Source of the DNA: Halarchaeum nitratireducens
GTDB lineage: Archaea; Halobacteriota; Halobacteria; Halobacteriales; Halobacteriaceae
DNA: 64,000 nucleotides
Direction: 5' to 3'
Assembly (NCBI RefSeq): GCF_014647155.1
Contig: NZ_BMOQ01000002.1
Coordinates: forward strand, 1-64,000
Under the pieces are notes generated by a model that saw only the letters and a program-made list of their open reading frames with translations, was not told where the DNA came from and did not search any database. Shown here piece after piece: positions 52,615 to 59,517 of this stretch (its first letter is position 1; each line of letters begins with the position of its first letter). A program made the position numbers and the translations under genes.

Positions 52615-52742
52615 CACACTCACCGACCGTCCTGTCCGACCACACAGGTACCGGCCACATGCTCCGCATTCGCGGTCCCCCGGTGAACGCTGACCGCACA
52701 CGCAAGCCTTTACGTGGGACGGTATTCGAGGAGGACACAACG

Positions 52743-53714
52743 ATGTCAGCGGACTTCCCCGACTACCTCGACGTCGACTACGCGGACGGCGAGGGCGAGA
52801 CCCCGGAGGATTATCCGACGCTCGAAGACAAGATCGAGAAAGCCGTGGCGGTCGTACGAACGGGCCTCGAAGAGTACGAGAACCCCGCGATCATGTGGAC
52901 GGGCGGGAAGGACTCGACGCTCACCCTCTACTTCGTCAAGGAGGTCGCCGAGGAGTACGGCTACGAGATGCCGCCCGCGATCTTCATCGACCACTACCAG
53001 CACTTCGAGGACCTCCTGGATTTCGCCGAGCACTGGGCCGACGAGTGGGACTTCGAGCTCATCTACGCCCGGAACGAGGACGTCGGCGACTACGTCGAGG
53101 CCAACGACCTCAACCCCGGTGACGACATCGACATCTCCGCCCTCTCCGAACACAACCGACACCACGTTCGGGACATCCTCGACTACCAAGAGGACACCTT
53201 CCCCTTCCTCCTCGACACGTACGTCGGCAATCACCTGCTCAAAACCGTGGCGCTCAACGACGCGCTCGAGGAGTACGATGTCGACGGGATCTTCTCGGGG
53301 ATCCGCTGGGACGAACAGGAAGCCCGCGCCGACGAGACGTTCTTCTCTCCTCGGCATGACCCCGACATCTACCCGCCGCACGACCGCATCCAGCCGATCC
53401 TCCAGTTCGACGAATCGGCGGTGTGGGACGCCTTCTGGCACTACGTCGTCCCCGAGAGCGTCGAGGGGTACCCCGAGGAGGGGTACGTTCCGCAGGCCTA
53501 CGACGACCTGCCCGAGGGCATCACCCACGAGGACATCCCCGTCTCCCCCAAGTACTTCAAGGGCTTCCGCTCGCTCGGTAGCGAAGTGAGCACTGATAAG
53601 GCCGACGACGAGCCCGCCTGGCTCCAGGACCTCGACAACACCACCGAGCGCGCCGGCCGCGCTCAGGACAAAGAGGACCTCATGGAGCGCCTCCGCGACC
53701 TCGGCTACATGTAA
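52743..53714 (+). CDS. PAPS reductase/CysD-like ATP pyrophosphatase-fold protein
   Basis: A 323-residue protein of the PAPS-reductase/sulfate-adenylyltransferase subunit 2 (CysD) superfamily. The PP-loop is IMWTGGKDSTLTLYF. IFIDHYQHFEDLLDF and FSGIRWDEQEARADET are typical of the nucleotide end. The C-terminal Cys used by PAPS reductases is absent and the whole protein contains no Cys, so a reductase role is unlikely. A CysD role would need CysN, which is not nearby. I chose the ATG at 52743 because GAGGAGG lies nine bases upstream and a TATA box about 30 bases upstream. Confidence 0.87.
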   Translation: MSADFPDYLDVDYADGEGETPEDYPTLEDKIEKAVAVVRTGLEEYENPAIMWTGGKDSTLTLYFVKEVAEEYGYEMPPAIFIDHYQHFEDLLDFAEHWADEWDFELIYARNEDVGDYVEANDLNPGDDIDISALSEHNRHHVRDILDYQEDTFPFLLDTYVGNHLLKTVALNDALEEYDVDGIFSGIRWDEQEARADETFFSPRHDPDIYPPHDRIQPILQFDESAVWDAFWHYVVPESVEGYPEEGYVPQAYDDLPEGITHEDIPVSPKYFKGFRSLGSEVSTDKADDEPAWLQDLDNTTERAGRAQDKEDLMERLRDLGYM

Positions 53715-53751: not shown

Positions 53752-53964
53752 ATGACCCAGACAGACGCGAGCGAGCGCACGCTCCCCGCCGGTATCGACC
53801 GCCCCGACGCGGTGCTCGGTGCCATCACCGTCCTGCTCGTCGCCGCCCTCGCGGCGACCGTCGTCGCACCCTACGCGGCGATGCCGACGCTCGCCGTCGG
53901 CTGTCTCGGGTGTCTCTGTCTCATCGGCGAAGCGGTGTTCGTCAACCCGCCGATCGAGGGCTAA
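53752..53964 (+). CDS. Small membrane protein (70 aa)
   Basis: Two hydrophobic segments near residues 20-40 and 43-63 (VLGAITVLLVAALAATVVA and LAVGCLGCLCLIGEAVF) with an acidic N-terminus. Three Cys in the second segment are notable. The family is unknown. It ends in convergent overlap with the next gene: its TAA and the other gene's TAG share CTAA. Confidence 0.55.
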   Translation: MTQTDASERTLPAGIDRPDAVLGAITVLLVAALAATVVAPYAAMPTLAVGCLGCLCLIGEAVFVNPPIEG

Positions 53965-54179
53965 CGCGAACGCCCGACGCGTGCCGGTACGCCGGCCACG
54001 AGCAGCGCGCCGCCGAGGACGGCGACGGCGAGCGCGCCCGCGACGAGCGCCGTCCCGCCGTACGGTCCCGGATACGTCCCGAAGATCCCACCGACGACGA
54101 GCGACGCCGTCGCGGCGACGAGCGCGAGCCAGCAGACGACGCCGCCGGCCGCCCGGACGATGCGGTCGTAACGCGTCAC
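53961..54179 (-). CDS. Small membrane protein (72 aa)
   Basis: Two hydrophobic segments near residues 10-30 and 42-65 (AGGVVCWLALVAATASLVVGG and TALVAGALAVAVLGGALLVAG) joined by a loop FGTYPGPYG. The GTG start at 54179 was chosen because the peptide then opens VTRYDRIVR, a reasonable cytoplasmic lead; the frame is open further upstream. Function is unknown. It overlaps the previous gene at the stops. Confidence 0.55.
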   Translation of the reverse strand: MTRYDRIVRAAGGVVCWLALVAATASLVVGGIFGTYPGPYGGTALVAGALAVAVLGGALLVAGVPARVGRSR

Positions 54180-54280
54180 GATCGTCCGGTTCGCGGCCGG
54201 GTGACAAAAACCGGCCGATCCGGGCGCCGAACGCTTTTGCGGACACGGAGCGTACGAACGACGAATTCGAGGTGTCACGA

Positions 54281-55741
54281 ATGAACAGGGGCGTCAGCAG
54301 CGTCGTCGGCACGATCCTCATGACCGGTATCGTCGTCGTCGCAGTGACGGTCGGCGGCGCTGCCATGCTGGATCGCGCGTACGGCGGTGGCGGCGCGGCC
54401 AGCGCGCCCGTCGCGGCCGTGGACGTCGGGGTCGATGGGACGAACGTCACCGTCACGCACTGCGGCGGCGACTCCCTCGCCAGCGACGACCTCGCCGCCG
54501 TACTTGACGGGACGAACGGGCTGCGACGCGTCGCGTTCTCCGAAGGACAGTGGGCGAGCGGCGGGCCCGCGAGCGGGACGTTCGCCCCGGGCATGACGTG
54601 GCTGTTCGAGAACGCGAGCGTCGGCTCCCTCGCCGAGGACGACGTCTCCGTCGCTCACACGCCCTCGAACACGCTCGTCGACACGACGCAGTGTGGTGGA
54701 GACTCGGTGAGAAGTCCCTCGACATCCACGGCGACGACGAGTACGACCACGACGACATCCACGACGAGTACGGCGAGTACGACCACGACGACATCCACGA
54801 CGAGCACGGCGAGTACGACCACGACGACATCCACGACGATGACCACCACCACGACCGACGATGATAGCTCGCCGCCGACGAGTGACGGGGTCGCCGATCC
54901 CGGATTCGCGTACGCGGACGCGAACGCAAACGGTGTCTACGACGGCGGGGACACTAGGGTGAACGAGAGTGAACTCGTCGATGGGTACTCGTCGGATATC
55001 CCGCTCGTCGTCCCGAAGAGCGTCTCCCTTAGCGTTGATAATCCGCTCTTCATCGCCGCGGACGGAATCACGCTCAACGGGAGCGTCGAATCGTCGGCAC
55101 AGAGCGCCCACATCACGCTCGACGCGAAGAGCGGGGCTCTGACCGTCGACGGGGCGTCCATCGAGACGACGGGCTACGACGCCCACGTGTCGCTCGCCGG
55201 GACCGGCCTCACCCTCCGCGATAGCACCGTTTCCACTACCGCACAGAGTTCGAGCATTGACGTTAATAGCTCGAACGGCGTCTTCGACGCCGAGAACACC
55301 ACTATCGAGACGGCCGGGTACGATGCCGAAGTGATACTGACCGGCGCGAGCGTCGACTTGGAGAACGGAACGGTCACGACGCAACAGCAGGACGCGCCGG
55401 TGAGTATCGACGCGACGACCGGCGACGCGAACCTACGTAACGCCACCCTCGCCGGATACGGCTACAGCGTGGATATCTCGGTGAGCGGTGCGTCGCTCGA
55501 TCTCTGTGGCGCCCGCGTCACGACGGAGCAACAGGGGGCGATGATCACGCTCACGGCCAGATCCGGACCCCTCGGCCTTCGCGACGGGAGCGTCGAAACG
55601 AGCGGGTACGAAGCCGACATCGCACTCACCGGCGATCCGATCGACCTCCGGAACGCGACGGTCCGTGCGAGCGATTCGAGCGCGACCGTCACGACGACGG
55701 GCGAGACACGGACGAACGCGAACACGACCGTTTCGGACTGA
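54281..55741 (+). CDS. Type IV pilin-like surface protein with Thr-rich stalk and beta-solenoid
   Basis: A 486-residue surface protein. The N-terminus is a class III (type IV pilin) signal, NRGVSSVVGTILMTGIVVVA, cleaved after the Gly by pilin peptidase. A small domain (about 40-140) with Cys61 and Cys138 precedes a Thr/Ser-rich stalk (about 146-192). Then comes a calcium-loop-like DANANGVYDGGD (213-224). Residues about 250-475 are a repeat with exact spacing of 24: Gln274, Gln322, Gln370 and Gln418 alternate with GY at 298, 346, 394 and 442. This is the pattern of a right-handed beta-solenoid, about nine coils. Haloarchaeal pilins are usually 120-200 residues. GAGGTG lies six bases before the ATG. 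Confidence 0.85.
   Translation: MNRGVSSVVGTILMTGIVVVAVTVGGAAMLDRAYGGGGAASAPVAAVDVGVDGTNVTVTHCGGDSLASDDLAAVLDGTNGLRRVAFSEGQWASGGPASGTFAPGMTWLFENASVGSLAEDDVSVAHTPSNTLVDTTQCGGDSVRSPSTSTATTSTTTTTSTTSTASTTTTTSTTSTASTTTTTSTTMTTTTTDDDSSPPTSDGVADPGFAYADANANGVYDGGDTRVNESELVDGYSSDIPLVVPKSVSLSVDNPLFIAADGITLNGSVESSAQSAHITLDAKSGALTVDGASIETTGYDAHVSLAGTGLTLRDSTVSTTAQSSSIDVNSSNGVFDAENTTIETAGYDAEVILTGASVDLENGTVTTQQQDAPVSIDATTGDANLRNATLAGYGYSVDISVSGASLDLCGARVTTEQQGAMITLTARSGPLGLRDGSVETSGYEADIALTGDPIDLRNATVRASDSSATVTTTGETRTNANTTVSD
54740..54838 (+). repeat. 36-bp tandem repeat encoding the Thr-rich stalk
   Basis: Units 54740-54775 and 54776-54811 differ at one base, and a third partial unit of 27 bases follows to 54838. 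Each unit encodes 12 residues of STTTTTSTTSTA form. The near identity suggests that stalk length varies by copy-number change. Confidence 0.9.
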
Positions 55742-55760: not shown

Positions 55761-56747
55761 TCAGTCGCCGTCCGGGATACCCTCGATGTCGCCGCCGTCG
55801 TCGCCGACGACGAACTGGCCGGCGGCGCGCTGTGCGCTGTTGACGAGCGTCACACGGAGGACGTAGGTGGCGACGAGGACGAACGGGGCGAACGCGACGG
55901 CTTCGACGGCGACGACGAGGAGGTTGCTGTCCGGGAGATCGGTGAGGAAGTGCATGAACGCCGCGACGATCGCGGCGGTCGGGACGGCCGTGAGGACGAG
56001 GTCACGGGAGAGGTCGGCGAGATCGCGGCGCGTGTAGAGCGTCTTGAAGTATTCGCGGGCGGTCGCGGCGTACTGGAGGAGCCGAAGCATCTCCTCGATG
56101 CGCTCGGCGGTCCCGTCGTCCAGCTCGTCGCCGTGCGCGGCGCGGATCGCGCGGAGGTCGTGGATCTGCCTGTCGTGGTCGTAGTCGATTGTCGCCAGCA
56201 CGACGTCGAGGGTGTCCTCCGCGCTTTCGAGCCCGCGGTTCATCTCGCCGGTCTCCTCCGCGAGAGTCTCGACGTACCCCTCCAAGTCCTCGCGTAGCTC
56301 GAAGTCCGCGGCGCCGAGGTCCTCTTCGAGGCGCTGGGCGCGTTCGAGGATACTTCCGGAGAGGAGTCGAAGGAGCGCCTCGGGTTCCGCCGGAACGTGC
56401 TCGGTGTCGACGACGGTCTCCAACTGGCGGCGGTACTCGACGACGCTCTGCACGCGACCGAACTGCTGTGCGAGCGGGTGCTGTTGTTGGGAGACGAACA
56501 GCGTGTTGACGGTGACGACGATACTGAAGAGGAAGAACGTCCCGCTGAGGAGCGCCGAGACGAGCGATATCGTGGGACTGGAGTCCGCGAGCGGGTTCTT
56601 CGCGCTCGCAAGGAGGGCGCCGGCGACGGGCCCGAAGGTGGTGAACCCGACGAGGAGGACGATCGTCGTCAGGACCCGTCGGTCGGCGGTGAACGCCATC
56701 CACCGGTACCAGTCGCGGCGCCATCTGTCGAACTCCCGCTCTCCCAT
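55761..56747 (-). CDS. Membrane protein with coiled-coil-like middle
   Basis: A 328-residue protein with hydrophobic pairs at both ends (about 23-50 and 60-85, then 240-262 and 270-298) and a soluble helical middle of about 150 residues that is rich in Glu/Leu/Arg (LLRLLSGSILERAQRLEEDLG, split). The conserved-looking TLFVSQQQHPLAQQFG follows helix 2. I believe this arrangement is found in other haloarchaea, but I know no function. It converges with the pilin-like gene, 19 bases apart. Confidence 0.7.
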   Translation of the reverse strand: MGEREFDRWRRDWYRWMAFTADRRVLTTIVLLVGFTTFGPVAGALLASAKNPLADSSPTISLVSALLSGTFFLFSIVVTVNTLFVSQQQHPLAQQFGRVQSVVEYRRQLETVVDTEHVPAEPEALLRLLSGSILERAQRLEEDLGAADFELREDLEGYVETLAEETGEMNRGLESAEDTLDVVLATIDYDHDRQIHDLRAIRAAHGDELDDGTAERIEEMLRLLQYAATAREYFKTLYTRRDLADLSRDLVLTAVPTAAIVAAFMHFLTDLPDSNLLVVAVEAVAFAPFVLVATYVLRVTLVNSAQRAAGQFVVGDDGGDIEGIPDGD

Positions 56748-56828: not shown

Positions 56829-57431
56829 GTGCCCTCCATCGAGTCGTTCGCCACGAAGCGCGGCACCGCGCGCTTCGAGGACAGCAAGATTCTCCTCGAA
56901 TCGTCCGTCGCCGGCTACCTCCGATCGCTCTACCGCGACTACTGGAAGAGCGACGCGTGGTGGCGTCGGGCGATCTTCCTCGGGTACGTCCTATGGGTCG
57001 TCTTCGCGATCGGGTGGTCGGCGCGACTGGTCGTCCTGCTCGTCCAGCGCGACGCCGACCCGATCTGGGCCGCCGGCGGCGCGGGCGTCGTCGCCGCGCT
57101 CTTGGTCGCGCTGTGGCTCGCGAACTACCTCCGGGGGTATCGCTCGCCCGACCGGATCGCGCTCGACGACGTCGAGTCGGTGACCGCGACGCGGGGCGAG
57201 CGGGGGCTGACGCGCCCGCGGCTCGTACTCGCGTACCGCGACGGCGACGCGACGCGCAAGCGCCGCGTGAACCTCCCGTCGCTCCTCATGCCGGACGGCG
57301 CGGAGACGTACGAGCGCGCGGTGACGGCGTTCGTCGAGCGCGGCATCGACGTCACGGGCGACCGGGCTGGCGTCGTGGACCCCGACGCGGGCGACGGGAA
57401 CGACGCGGCGGCCCCTGACGCGGGTCCCTGA
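56829..57431 (+). CDS. Membrane protein with two helices, unknown
   Basis: A 200-residue protein. Two helices (about 45-68 and 72-92: FLGYVLWVVFAIGWSARLVV and IWAAGGAGVVAALLVALWLA) are followed by a soluble domain of about 85 residues with a beta-rich look (DRIALDDVESVTATRGERGL), reminiscent of PH-like domains. The GTG start at 56829 was chosen because it lies after the divergent promoter; earlier codons are less protein-like. The C-terminus is Asp/Gly/Ala-rich. Unknown function. Confidence 0.65.
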   Translation: MPSIESFATKRGTARFEDSKILLESSVAGYLRSLYRDYWKSDAWWRRAIFLGYVLWVVFAIGWSARLVVLLVQRDADPIWAAGGAGVVAALLVALWLANYLRGYRSPDRIALDDVESVTATRGERGLTRPRLVLAYRDGDATRKRRVNLPSLLMPDGAETYERAVTAFVERGIDVTGDRAGVVDPDAGDGNDAAAPDAGP

Positions 57432-57534
57432 GTCGCGCGCCCGCCTCCGTCGTCCCCGTTCCGCCTCCGTCGCGGTCCACGACGCGGCCCGCCGCCTGTC
57501 GGGCATTTATCAACGCCCGCGCCCACTCGGGAGT

Positions 57535-59517
57535 ATGGACGACGGTGGCGCCGATGGCGCCGATCCCCGGAACCCGATGTGGCGGCTGTACGCGGAGCAC
57601 GGCCGCGGCAACTGGGAGTGGGTGGCCGGCGGCGCGCTCGCCACCGTCGCGGGCCGCCTGCTCGGCCTCGTCCCCGCGTACATCGTCGGTCTCGCCGTCG
57701 ACTCGATCTTCCTCGGCGCGCGGCCGTTCGGGCTCCCGTTCGTTCCCGCCGACTGGCTCCCCGCGGCGACGGCCCGGTGGGCTCAGGTGGAGGTCGCGGT
57801 CGGCGTGTTGCTCGCCGCGACGCTCGCGGGCGCGGCGCTCTCGTGGATCGACGACTACGCGTGGAGCGTCTTCGCCCAGCGCACCCAACACGACCTCCGC
57901 GCGGCGACGTTCGAGCGTCTCCAAGCGCTCGATCTCGCCTTCTTCACGCACCGCCGAACGGGCGAACTGATGAGCGTGCTGAACAACGACGTGAACGCCC
58001 TGGAGACCTTCCTCGCGGACGCGGTGAGCTCCTCGCTGTGGATCCTCGCGACCGTCGGCGGCATCGGCGCGGTGATGCTCTCCCTGAACGCGCCGCTGAC
58101 GCTCGCCGCGCTCCTCCCGATCCCGCTGCTCGCGGTGTTCACGCTCGTCTTCGCGCGCGTCATCGAGCCGCGGTACCTCGCCGTCCGCGAGGAGATCGGC
58201 GACCTGAACGCGCGTCTGGAGAACACGGTGAGCGGGATCGAGACCGTGAAGACGGCGAACGCGGAGACGTACGAGGCCGCGCGGACGCGCGAGGCGTCGC
58301 TCGCCTATCTCGCGTCGAACCTCTCGGCGATCCGCGCGCGCATCACGTTCTTCCCGGGGCTGAACGTCATCTCCGGCGTCGGCTTCGCCGTCACCTTCCT
58401 GCTCGGGAGCTACTGGGTGCTCTTCGGTCCGCCGTTCGGCCTCGCGGCGACGCTCACCCCCGGCGAGTTCGTGACGTTCGTCATCTACGCCCAGCAGTTC
58501 GTCTGGCCGATCGTCCAGTTCGGCGACATCGTCGACGACTACGAGCGCGCGAAGGCGGCCGGCACGCGCGTCTACGGGCTCTCGACGCGCGAGCGCGAGA
58601 TCCGCGACGCCCCCGACGCGACACCCCTCGACGTCGGTGCGGGCCGCGTCGCGTACGACGACGTCTCGTTCTCGTATCACCGGCCGGGCGGGAACGGCGA
58701 CGACGGGGACGGCGACGGCACGAACGGCGGCGGGAGCGCTGTCGACGACACCGACGGCGGCACGCGCGTCCCGGTCCTCCGCGACGTCTCGTTCGCGGCC
58801 GAGGGCGGGGAGACGATCGGCGTCGTCGGGCCGACGGGCGCGGGGAAGTCCACGCTGCTCAAGCTCCTCCCGCGGCTCTACGACGTCGACTCGGGGGCGG
58901 TCCGCGTCGACGGCCGGGACGTCCGGAACGTGACCGTCGACAGCCTCCGGGGCGCGATCGGCTACGTCGGGCAGGACCCCTTCCTCTTCTACGGGACGGT
59001 GCGCGAGAACGTTCGCTACGGGTCGTTCGAGGCGAGCGACGCGGCCGTCGAGGCGGCGGCGAAGCGCGCGCAGGCCCACGCGTTCATCGAGCGCCTGCCG
59101 GACGGCTACGAGACGATGGTGGGCGAGCGGGGCGTGAAGCTCTCGGGCGGCCAGCGCCAGCGTCTCGTCGTCGCGCGTGCGATCCTGAAGGACCCCGACA
59201 TCATGATCCTCGACGAGGCGACGAGCGCGGTCGATACGGAGACGGAGGCGCTCATCCAGCGCGCGCTCGCGGACTTCGCGGCGGACCGGACGACGTTCGT
59301 CATCGCCCACCGCCTCTCGACGGTCCGCCACGCGGACCGGATCCTGGTCGTCGACGACAGCGAGGTCGTCGAACGCGGGACCCACGAGGACCTCCTCGAA
59401 CGGGACGGACTGTACGCGAACCTCTGGCGCGTCCAGGCCGGCGAGATCGCGTCGCTCCCGGCGTCGTTCCTCGAACGCGCGCGAGAACGGGGCGACGCCC
59501 TCTCCGACGAGGACTGA
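57535..59517 (+). CDS. ABC exporter, fused permease and ATPase
   Basis: A 660-residue half-transporter that should act as a homodimer. Six helices occupy about residues 30-330, with the coupling-helix region RTGELMSVLNNDVNALETFL. The ATPase has Walker A GPTGAGKST, Q-loop VGQDPFLFYG, signature LSGGQRQR, Walker B IMILDEATSAVD and the switch His in IAHRLST, so it is complete. A 25-residue Gly/Asp-rich linker (GGNGDDGDGDGTNGGG) interrupts the start of the ATPase, which is unusual. Substrate unknown; lipid or drug export is typical. A TATA-like CATTTATC lies 26-30 bases before the ATG. Confidence 0.93.
   Translation: MDDGGADGADPRNPMWRLYAEHGRGNWEWVAGGALATVAGRLLGLVPAYIVGLAVDSIFLGARPFGLPFVPADWLPAATARWAQVEVAVGVLLAATLAGAALSWIDDYAWSVFAQRTQHDLRAATFERLQALDLAFFTHRRTGELMSVLNNDVNALETFLADAVSSSLWILATVGGIGAVMLSLNAPLTLAALLPIPLLAVFTLVFARVIEPRYLAVREEIGDLNARLENTVSGIETVKTANAETYEAARTREASLAYLASNLSAIRARITFFPGLNVISGVGFAVTFLLGSYWVLFGPPFGLAATLTPGEFVTFVIYAQQFVWPIVQFGDIVDDYERAKAAGTRVYGLSTREREIRDAPDATPLDVGAGRVAYDDVSFSYHRPGGNGDDGDGDGTNGGGSAVDDTDGGTRVPVLRDVSFAAEGGETIGVVGPTGAGKSTLLKLLPRLYDVDSGAVRVDGRDVRNVTVDSLRGAIGYVGQDPFLFYGTVRENVRYGSFEASDAAVEAAAKRAQAHAFIERLPDGYETMVGERGVKLSGGQRQRLVVARAILKDPDIMILDEATSAVDTETEALIQRALADFAADRTTFVIAHRLSTVRHADRILVVDDSEVVERGTHEDLLERDGLYANLWRVQAGEIASLPASFLERARERGDALSDED

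Follow-up and report, generated by a model that had tools for sequence, protein, structure and literature searches.

The 64,000-nucleotide stretch of Halarchaeum nitratireducens DNA analysed here (the window) encodes a 486-residue protein. It is most likely a modular type IV pilin-like protein of the cell surface whose ectodomain can be exchanged, and it would probably serve in adhesion or cell recognition. The protein combines an N-terminal pilin module with a module that is not specific to pilus biology, as modular type IV pilins do. A preliminary description of this DNA had suggested that a pilin signal anchors a surface protein in which a stalk is combined with a calcium-type loop and a β-solenoid. 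This architecture is well supported, and the open reading frame and its coordinates are real (Table 1). Two further results, the unnamed module formed by the cap and the solenoid and the exchange of the ectodomain at a constant locus, are more interesting than the original observation. The window genome (G000) was compared with four relatives from the same genus, namely G001, G002, G003 and Halarchaeum sp. CBA1220.

Table 1 Features of the pilin-like gene and its flanking genes in the window
Feature	Residues	Positions	Strand	Basis
Whole gene, modular pilin-like protein, 486 aa		54281–55741	+	Open reading frame and translation; kept in genus genomes
Class III signal peptide, membrane helix and pilin head	1–143	54281–54709	+	PF07790, TIGR02537
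Thr-rich stalk, 48 residues	145–192	54713–54856	+	Composition
Cap region	206–265	54896–55075	+	Family signature AYDDANGNGxYDxGE...LVVP
EF-hand-like loop DANANGVYDGGD	213–224	54917–54952	+	Conserved loop positions
Predicted β-solenoid, alternating 25-/23-residue coils	268–486	55082–55738	+	Autocorrelation, AlphaFold2 models, coil table
Exchanged segment, stalk end to 18 bases past the stop codon		54857–55758	+	No DNA similarity to G003, blastn of syntenic loci
Upstream flank, PAPS-reductase-family gene		52740–53714	+	Name from annotated Halarchaeum record
Downstream flank, 328-aa membrane protein		55761–56747	−	85–93% identity in four relatives

The N-terminal region is that of an archaeal type IV pilin, with a class III signal peptide, a hydrophobic helix and a Pilin_N domain. 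PF07790 spans residues 3–79 (E 1.1e-9, 39.4 bits versus the curated Pfam cut-off of 25.2) and TIGR02537 also matches the protein (E 1.8e-5, 24.2 bits versus a cut-off of 20), and the type IV pilin signal recognised earlier is thereby borne out by two models, each above its cut-off. The motif predicts prepilin cleavage after Gly4. Residues 1–143 are 63–71% identical in G001 and G003. The pilin head is bracketed by Cys61 (54461–54463) and Cys138 (54692–54694), which are present in G001 and G003 and absent from G002, CBA1220 and the genome G013; the two residues may form a disulfide in this lineage. The window genome encodes a prepilin peptidase (Peptidase_A24) and gives five domain matches to PilC-type platform proteins, so that the means to export and process the protein, and possibly to assemble it into a pilus, are present, although the gene itself does not adjoin pilus assembly genes. 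Given the signal and these machinery genes, the N-terminus would be exported, cut by the prepilin peptidase and would then remain in the membrane or become part of a pilus. Two pilin open reading frames of the same genome, of 143 and 167 aa, are matched on contig C5. A search of this genome for silent copies of the solenoid found none, and besides the gene itself just two N-terminal matches in small pilin open reading frames were recovered.

The pilin head is followed by the stalk, whose Thr-rich character, already pointed out in the preliminary description, is evident from its composition. A 36-bp tandem repeat (54720–54839, 3.4 copies, 93% matches by TRF) accounts for most of the coding sequence of the stalk. 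The stalk comprises 48 residues in the window genome, 17 in G001 and 72 in G003, and in view of the repeat and of these differences among relatives it may change its length by slippage. It is probably O-glycosylated. Together, the pilin head and the stalk would raise the ectodomain through and above the S-layer.

The cap region lies between the stalk and the solenoid, and its DNA is 76% identical to that of G001. It contains the calcium-type loop that had been placed ahead of the solenoid, a conserved 12-mer with ligand-type residues at positions 1, 3, 5, 9 and 12 and a glycine at position 6, as in EF-hand-like loops; the window protein has D-N-N-G-D-D at the six positions. Positions 1, 6 and 9 (D, G and D) are invariant in all 16 aligned members, and in 24 of the 31 family members every one of the six positions examined fits. 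The loop is probably filled with Ca2+ and would cap the rod-like solenoid of 25- and 23-residue coils seen in the model.

The C-terminal half of the protein is built of a two-coil repeat. The preliminary description had reported a strict 24-residue spacing, with Gln at 274, 322, 370 and 418 and Gly-Tyr at 298, 346, 394 and 442. These residues are located exactly at the positions given, and the regularity lies far above chance. In the BLOSUM autocorrelation of residues 256–486, the highest peak is 1.34 at lag 48 (z 12.8). When the sequence was shuffled 1000 times, the maximum over all lags had a 99.9% quantile of 0.28. The strongest lags are 48, 96, 23, 71, 57 and 25, which identifies a 48-residue unit of two coils with 25 and 23 residues. 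An exact 24-residue period is rejected, since lag 24 is not among the strongest and the coil table alternates between 25 and 23. The apparent spacing of 24 arose from measuring from Gln to the Gly that precedes Tyr, whereas Gln and Tyr share the structural register (25, 23, 25, 23). The units are 27–42% identical among themselves in protein and 43–54% in DNA, indicating an old repeat. At one corner of the coils, column 7 of the coil table alternates Gln and Tyr, forming a ladder. Even the G001 ortholog does not keep this ladder, an argument against a catalytic site or a universal binding site at this corner.

Structure prediction gave a confident β-solenoid for this region. In the AlphaFold2 (AF2) model of the whole protein, most of residues 1–235 have low confidence, making the Foldseek result for the whole protein hard to interpret, and the solenoid domain was therefore refolded alone. 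From the single sequence, the domain is predicted with a mean pLDDT of 84, and of about 90 across the coils. The first strands of successive coils start at residues 268, 293, 316, 341, 364, 389, 412, 437 and 460, a spacing of 25/23 throughout, and the ninth and last coil is degenerate. The model has the parallel strands of successive coils stacked on each other and a hydrophobic core pointing inward. The inward columns 2, 9, 11, 13, 20 and 22 are nearly all Val, Ile, Leu or Ala and are uncharged in the four full units; one Asp, in the turn-side column 19 of the coil table, is not counted as inward. On the basis of these models, the C-terminal half is likely a β-solenoid. Most Foldseek matches to the domain model are β-helix proteins (polygalacturonase, PfbA, SRRP, AlgE4, pertactin). 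The best match to the PDB has an E-value of 0.0098, and the TM-score is at most 0.35 among the matches listed; viral structure models give a similar picture, with weak matches in BFVD. Residues 203–486 had no match when the PDB was searched by sequence. Of the right-handed β-solenoid with one coil per 24 residues that had been suggested earlier, the predicted solenoid stands and the coil length is replaced by 25/23, while its handedness and cross-section are tentative, since solved β-helices match at low TM-score only.

AF2 is known to give confident false solenoids on perfect or near-perfect repeats (PMC11795689), and this, together with the low TM-scores against the PDB, raises the question of whether the C-terminal half is no solenoid and the model an artefact of the repeat. 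The units of the window protein are, however, diverged to the degree given above, their inward columns carry no charge in the four full units, and the 25/23 alternation of the model agrees with the independent autocorrelation. Moreover, relatives match curated β-helix models. No curated β-helix family matches the window protein itself in the Pfam search, but in the distant relative L065 PF13229 (Beta_helix) reaches 29.2 bits versus a cut-off of 25.9, and Fil_haemagg_2 is also above its cut-off. We consider an artefact highly improbable, and the solenoid reading is kept below.

The cap and the solenoid together form a module that is widespread in haloarchaea and is named by no Pfam or NCBIfam model. 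A profile of the cap and solenoid finds it in 61 of 392 sampled haloarchaeal genomes and in 22 of 86 genera; the domain of the window protein as query, without a profile, finds it in 31 of the 392, including members with other anchor types. Carriers include Haloarcula, Halosimplex, Halomicrobium, Salinadaptatus and Halobaculum. The module follows N-terminal anchors of at least four kinds. The first is Pilin_N, in the genus of the window and in G013 and G007. The second comprises SipW-type signals, assigned by eye in L056–L060, L064, L066, L077 and L079, with TIGR04088 above its cut-off in L058 and L077. The third consists of long pilin-like proteins, some with Big_1-like matches (for example, L061, L069, L071 and L074), and the fourth is a IAGDRPVDVAVA-like segment (L062, L065, L072 and L075). 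The module is thus not pilin-specific. The preliminary description had expected homologues to keep both the pilin signal and a fixed repeat spacing. Many homologues lack the signal, and an obligate pilin–solenoid unit is rejected because SipW-type and other anchors bear the module; this leaves the architecture of the window protein untouched. The spacing differs as well: the two-coil period is constant within each protein but varies between proteins. Where the signal is clear, most members have a period of about 43 to 48, and L070 has one of 65. Very regular 43-residue two-coil units occur in L065, L072 and L075, with copies closer to each other than those of the window protein and an autocorrelation of up to 2.14 in L072.

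The domain order of pilin, cap and solenoid recurs outside the genus. It is found in G013 and G007, including another genus of the Halobacteriaceae, and in the methanogen Methanohalophilus profundi, where Pilin_N (E 4.4e-14) is followed by the cap and a short solenoid-like stretch. In a phylum-wide sample, only two weak matches lie outside the order of the window organism, and no relative was found among viral contigs when a viral source was sought. G013 encodes a second protein (L037, 5132–5980) with Pilin_N and a Thr-rich stalk that ends in a PKD domain (PF22352, E 1.4e-11), indicating that the pilin-and-stalk chassis bears other ectodomains too.

Comparison of the DNA shows block-wise exchange of the ectodomain among close relatives that retain the anchor and the neighbouring genes. 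The locus is syntenic in all five genus genomes, and the flanking proteins are mostly 85–95% identical; the PAPS-reductase-family protein has 94–95% identity in G002, G003 and CBA1220, and 91% over its main part in G001. Between the window genome and G003, which has the most similar flanks of the relatives compared, blastn aligns the DNA at 84% up to 54855 at the stalk end, finds no similarity until 55759 and then resumes at 89.5%. The outer part of the window protein consists of stalk, cap and solenoid, whereas in G003 the stalk is followed by five Ig-like repeats, which are named by their sequence pattern and unrecognised by Pfam. No solenoid was detectable across the whole G003 genome. In G001, the cap and solenoid come after three Ig-like repeats. 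G002 has a cap with a different solenoid, and CBA1220 combines a single Ig-like repeat with a degenerate cap and a short solenoid. The junctions between the window genome and G001, at DDDSSPP and DPGFAY, are module boundaries. Upstream, G002 and CBA1220 share 94.4% DNA identity along 3.4 kb that end near position 460 of the gene; no blastn match follows for about 1 kb inside the gene, and identity returns at 96% from about position 1467. Their proteins agree at 114 of the first 120 aligned residues and at 26 of the last 28, whereas identity in the middle is roughly 30%. Reading frames are intact in all five genomes. When a donor for the G002 ectodomain was sought, the best matches outside G002 were only 27–32% identical. 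The simplest history, drawn from few genomes, would start from an ancestor that had Ig-like repeats and a solenoid as well as the stalk; the sister lineages would then have lost one or the other, and G002/CBA1220 would have undergone block replacement.

A small open reading frame and a gene nearby also differ among the relatives. A small open reading frame of about 73 aa with hydrophobic segments lies between the PAPS-reductase-family and pilin genes (53961–54182, minus strand); its identity is 80% in G003, 62% in G001 and below 50% in G002 and CBA1220. An ABC transporter gene (57535–59517) is present at this place in the window genome, G002 and CBA1220 and absent from the locus in G001 and G003, where the alignment jumps from about 57360 to 59505–59521.

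The exchange could have come about without selection if the protein were purely structural, a membrane-held spacer or an S-layer-associated rod whose outer part drifts under weak constraint. The low-complexity stalk and the repetitive rod agree with such a role, as do the variable stalk length and the failure to find a donor for the G002 ectodomain. Similarity nevertheless ends and restarts abruptly at module borders, with anchors ~97% identical over the first 120 residues in G002 and CBA1220; in addition, all five frames are intact and the cap loop is strongly conserved throughout haloarchaea. We therefore regard a purely structural protein as unlikely. A surface protein for adhesion or recognition that changes fast would be expected to show this pattern.

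Catalysis fits the data less well still. Polysaccharide lyases, hydrolases and epimerases with β-helices form their active sites from long loops. A surface-displayed enzyme of one of these types is brought to mind by the many weak Foldseek matches to polygalacturonases, alginate epimerases and lyases, but their TM-scores are low, and the coils of the window protein are short and regular without long active-site loops. Furthermore, no polar cluster is conserved and the Gln/Tyr ladder is lost in G001, Pfam gives no enzyme family for the window protein, and G003 is wholly without the solenoid. An enzyme is thus highly improbable. A regular rod that lacks conserved polar clusters, sits on interchangeable anchors and is swapped with Ig-like repeats suits contact rather than catalysis. 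The preferred reading is that of a contact protein, which would most likely mediate adhesion to surfaces or cells, or strain-specific recognition. Binding is also known for modular pilins and for the solenoid-bearing pilin ComZ (PMC8179133, PMC6561018). In a more specific version, the locus encodes a variable recognition receptor, in which solenoid, Ig-like repeats or both are swapped onto a constant pilin anchor by recombination in the conserved flanks, under selection by viruses or partner recognition, and in which the haloarchaeal pool of cap–solenoid modules is shared with SipW-type and other anchors. Haloarchaeal cell-surface variation is generally attributed to virus pressure (PMC6011602). 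We put this version forward tentatively, as a possibility worth keeping in mind.

These results extend modular pilins to archaea; the solenoid module concerned has no name in the family libraries searched and recurs in the 61 haloarchaeal genomes mentioned above. The locus is compact, consisting of a single gene, and the exchange of its ectodomain could be linked to phenotypes of adhesion, mating or virus resistance. If the exchange is selected, placing another ectodomain on the unchanged anchor would be a direct test of what determines the adhesion partners of haloarchaeal cells and the viruses that enter them.

Several known systems share parts of this arrangement. Modular type IV pilins have many architectures, and an adhesive role has been shown for PilB of Streptococcus sanguinis (PMC8179133). 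S. sanguinis PilB and PilC likewise use a small pilin module to display an extra functional module on the filament (PMC8179133), but these carry bacterial vWA or lectin modules on a short loop, whereas the window protein has an archaeal Pilin_N, a long Thr-rich stalk and an exchanged solenoid. ComZ of Thermus thermophilus is a pilin with a large β-solenoid, proposed as a tip receptor for DNA (PMC6561018; PMC8179133). It resembles the window protein in architecture by combining a pilin with a β-solenoid, although the ComZ solenoid is inserted within the pilin module and that of the window protein is placed after the stalk. Haloarchaeal PilA-type pilins and archaeal minor pilins have the same N-terminal signal and Pilin_N and are processed by PibD, and larger FlaFind-positive pilins have been mentioned (PMC4371748, PMC4858521). 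Compared with the two short pilins matched on contig C5, the window protein adds stalk, cap and solenoid.

Other systems are comparable in their variation. VARTIG of the Thermococcales is likewise a recurring locus where the outer part of a surface protein varies by recombination between strains or species (PMC8416519). It is a large, hypervariable protein with Ig domains only and a variable C-terminus, is not pilin-anchored and is accompanied by a variable downstream gene set, whereas the window locus has a pilin anchor and constant immediate flanks, and its gene carries no Ig-like repeat; it thus falls outside VARTIG. UpsA of the Sulfolobales is a pilin with a variable part that sets species-specific cell recognition (PMC7064770), but it is crenarchaeal and its variable region lies inside the pilin head, in contrast to the separate exchanged ectodomain of the window protein. 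In the cell-wall islands of Haloquadratum walsbyi, haloarchaeal surface proteins, some with parallel β-helix repeats, vary via homologous recombination (PMC4535781). Those islands span tens of kb and many genes, whereas the exchange in the window concerns one ectodomain within one gene.
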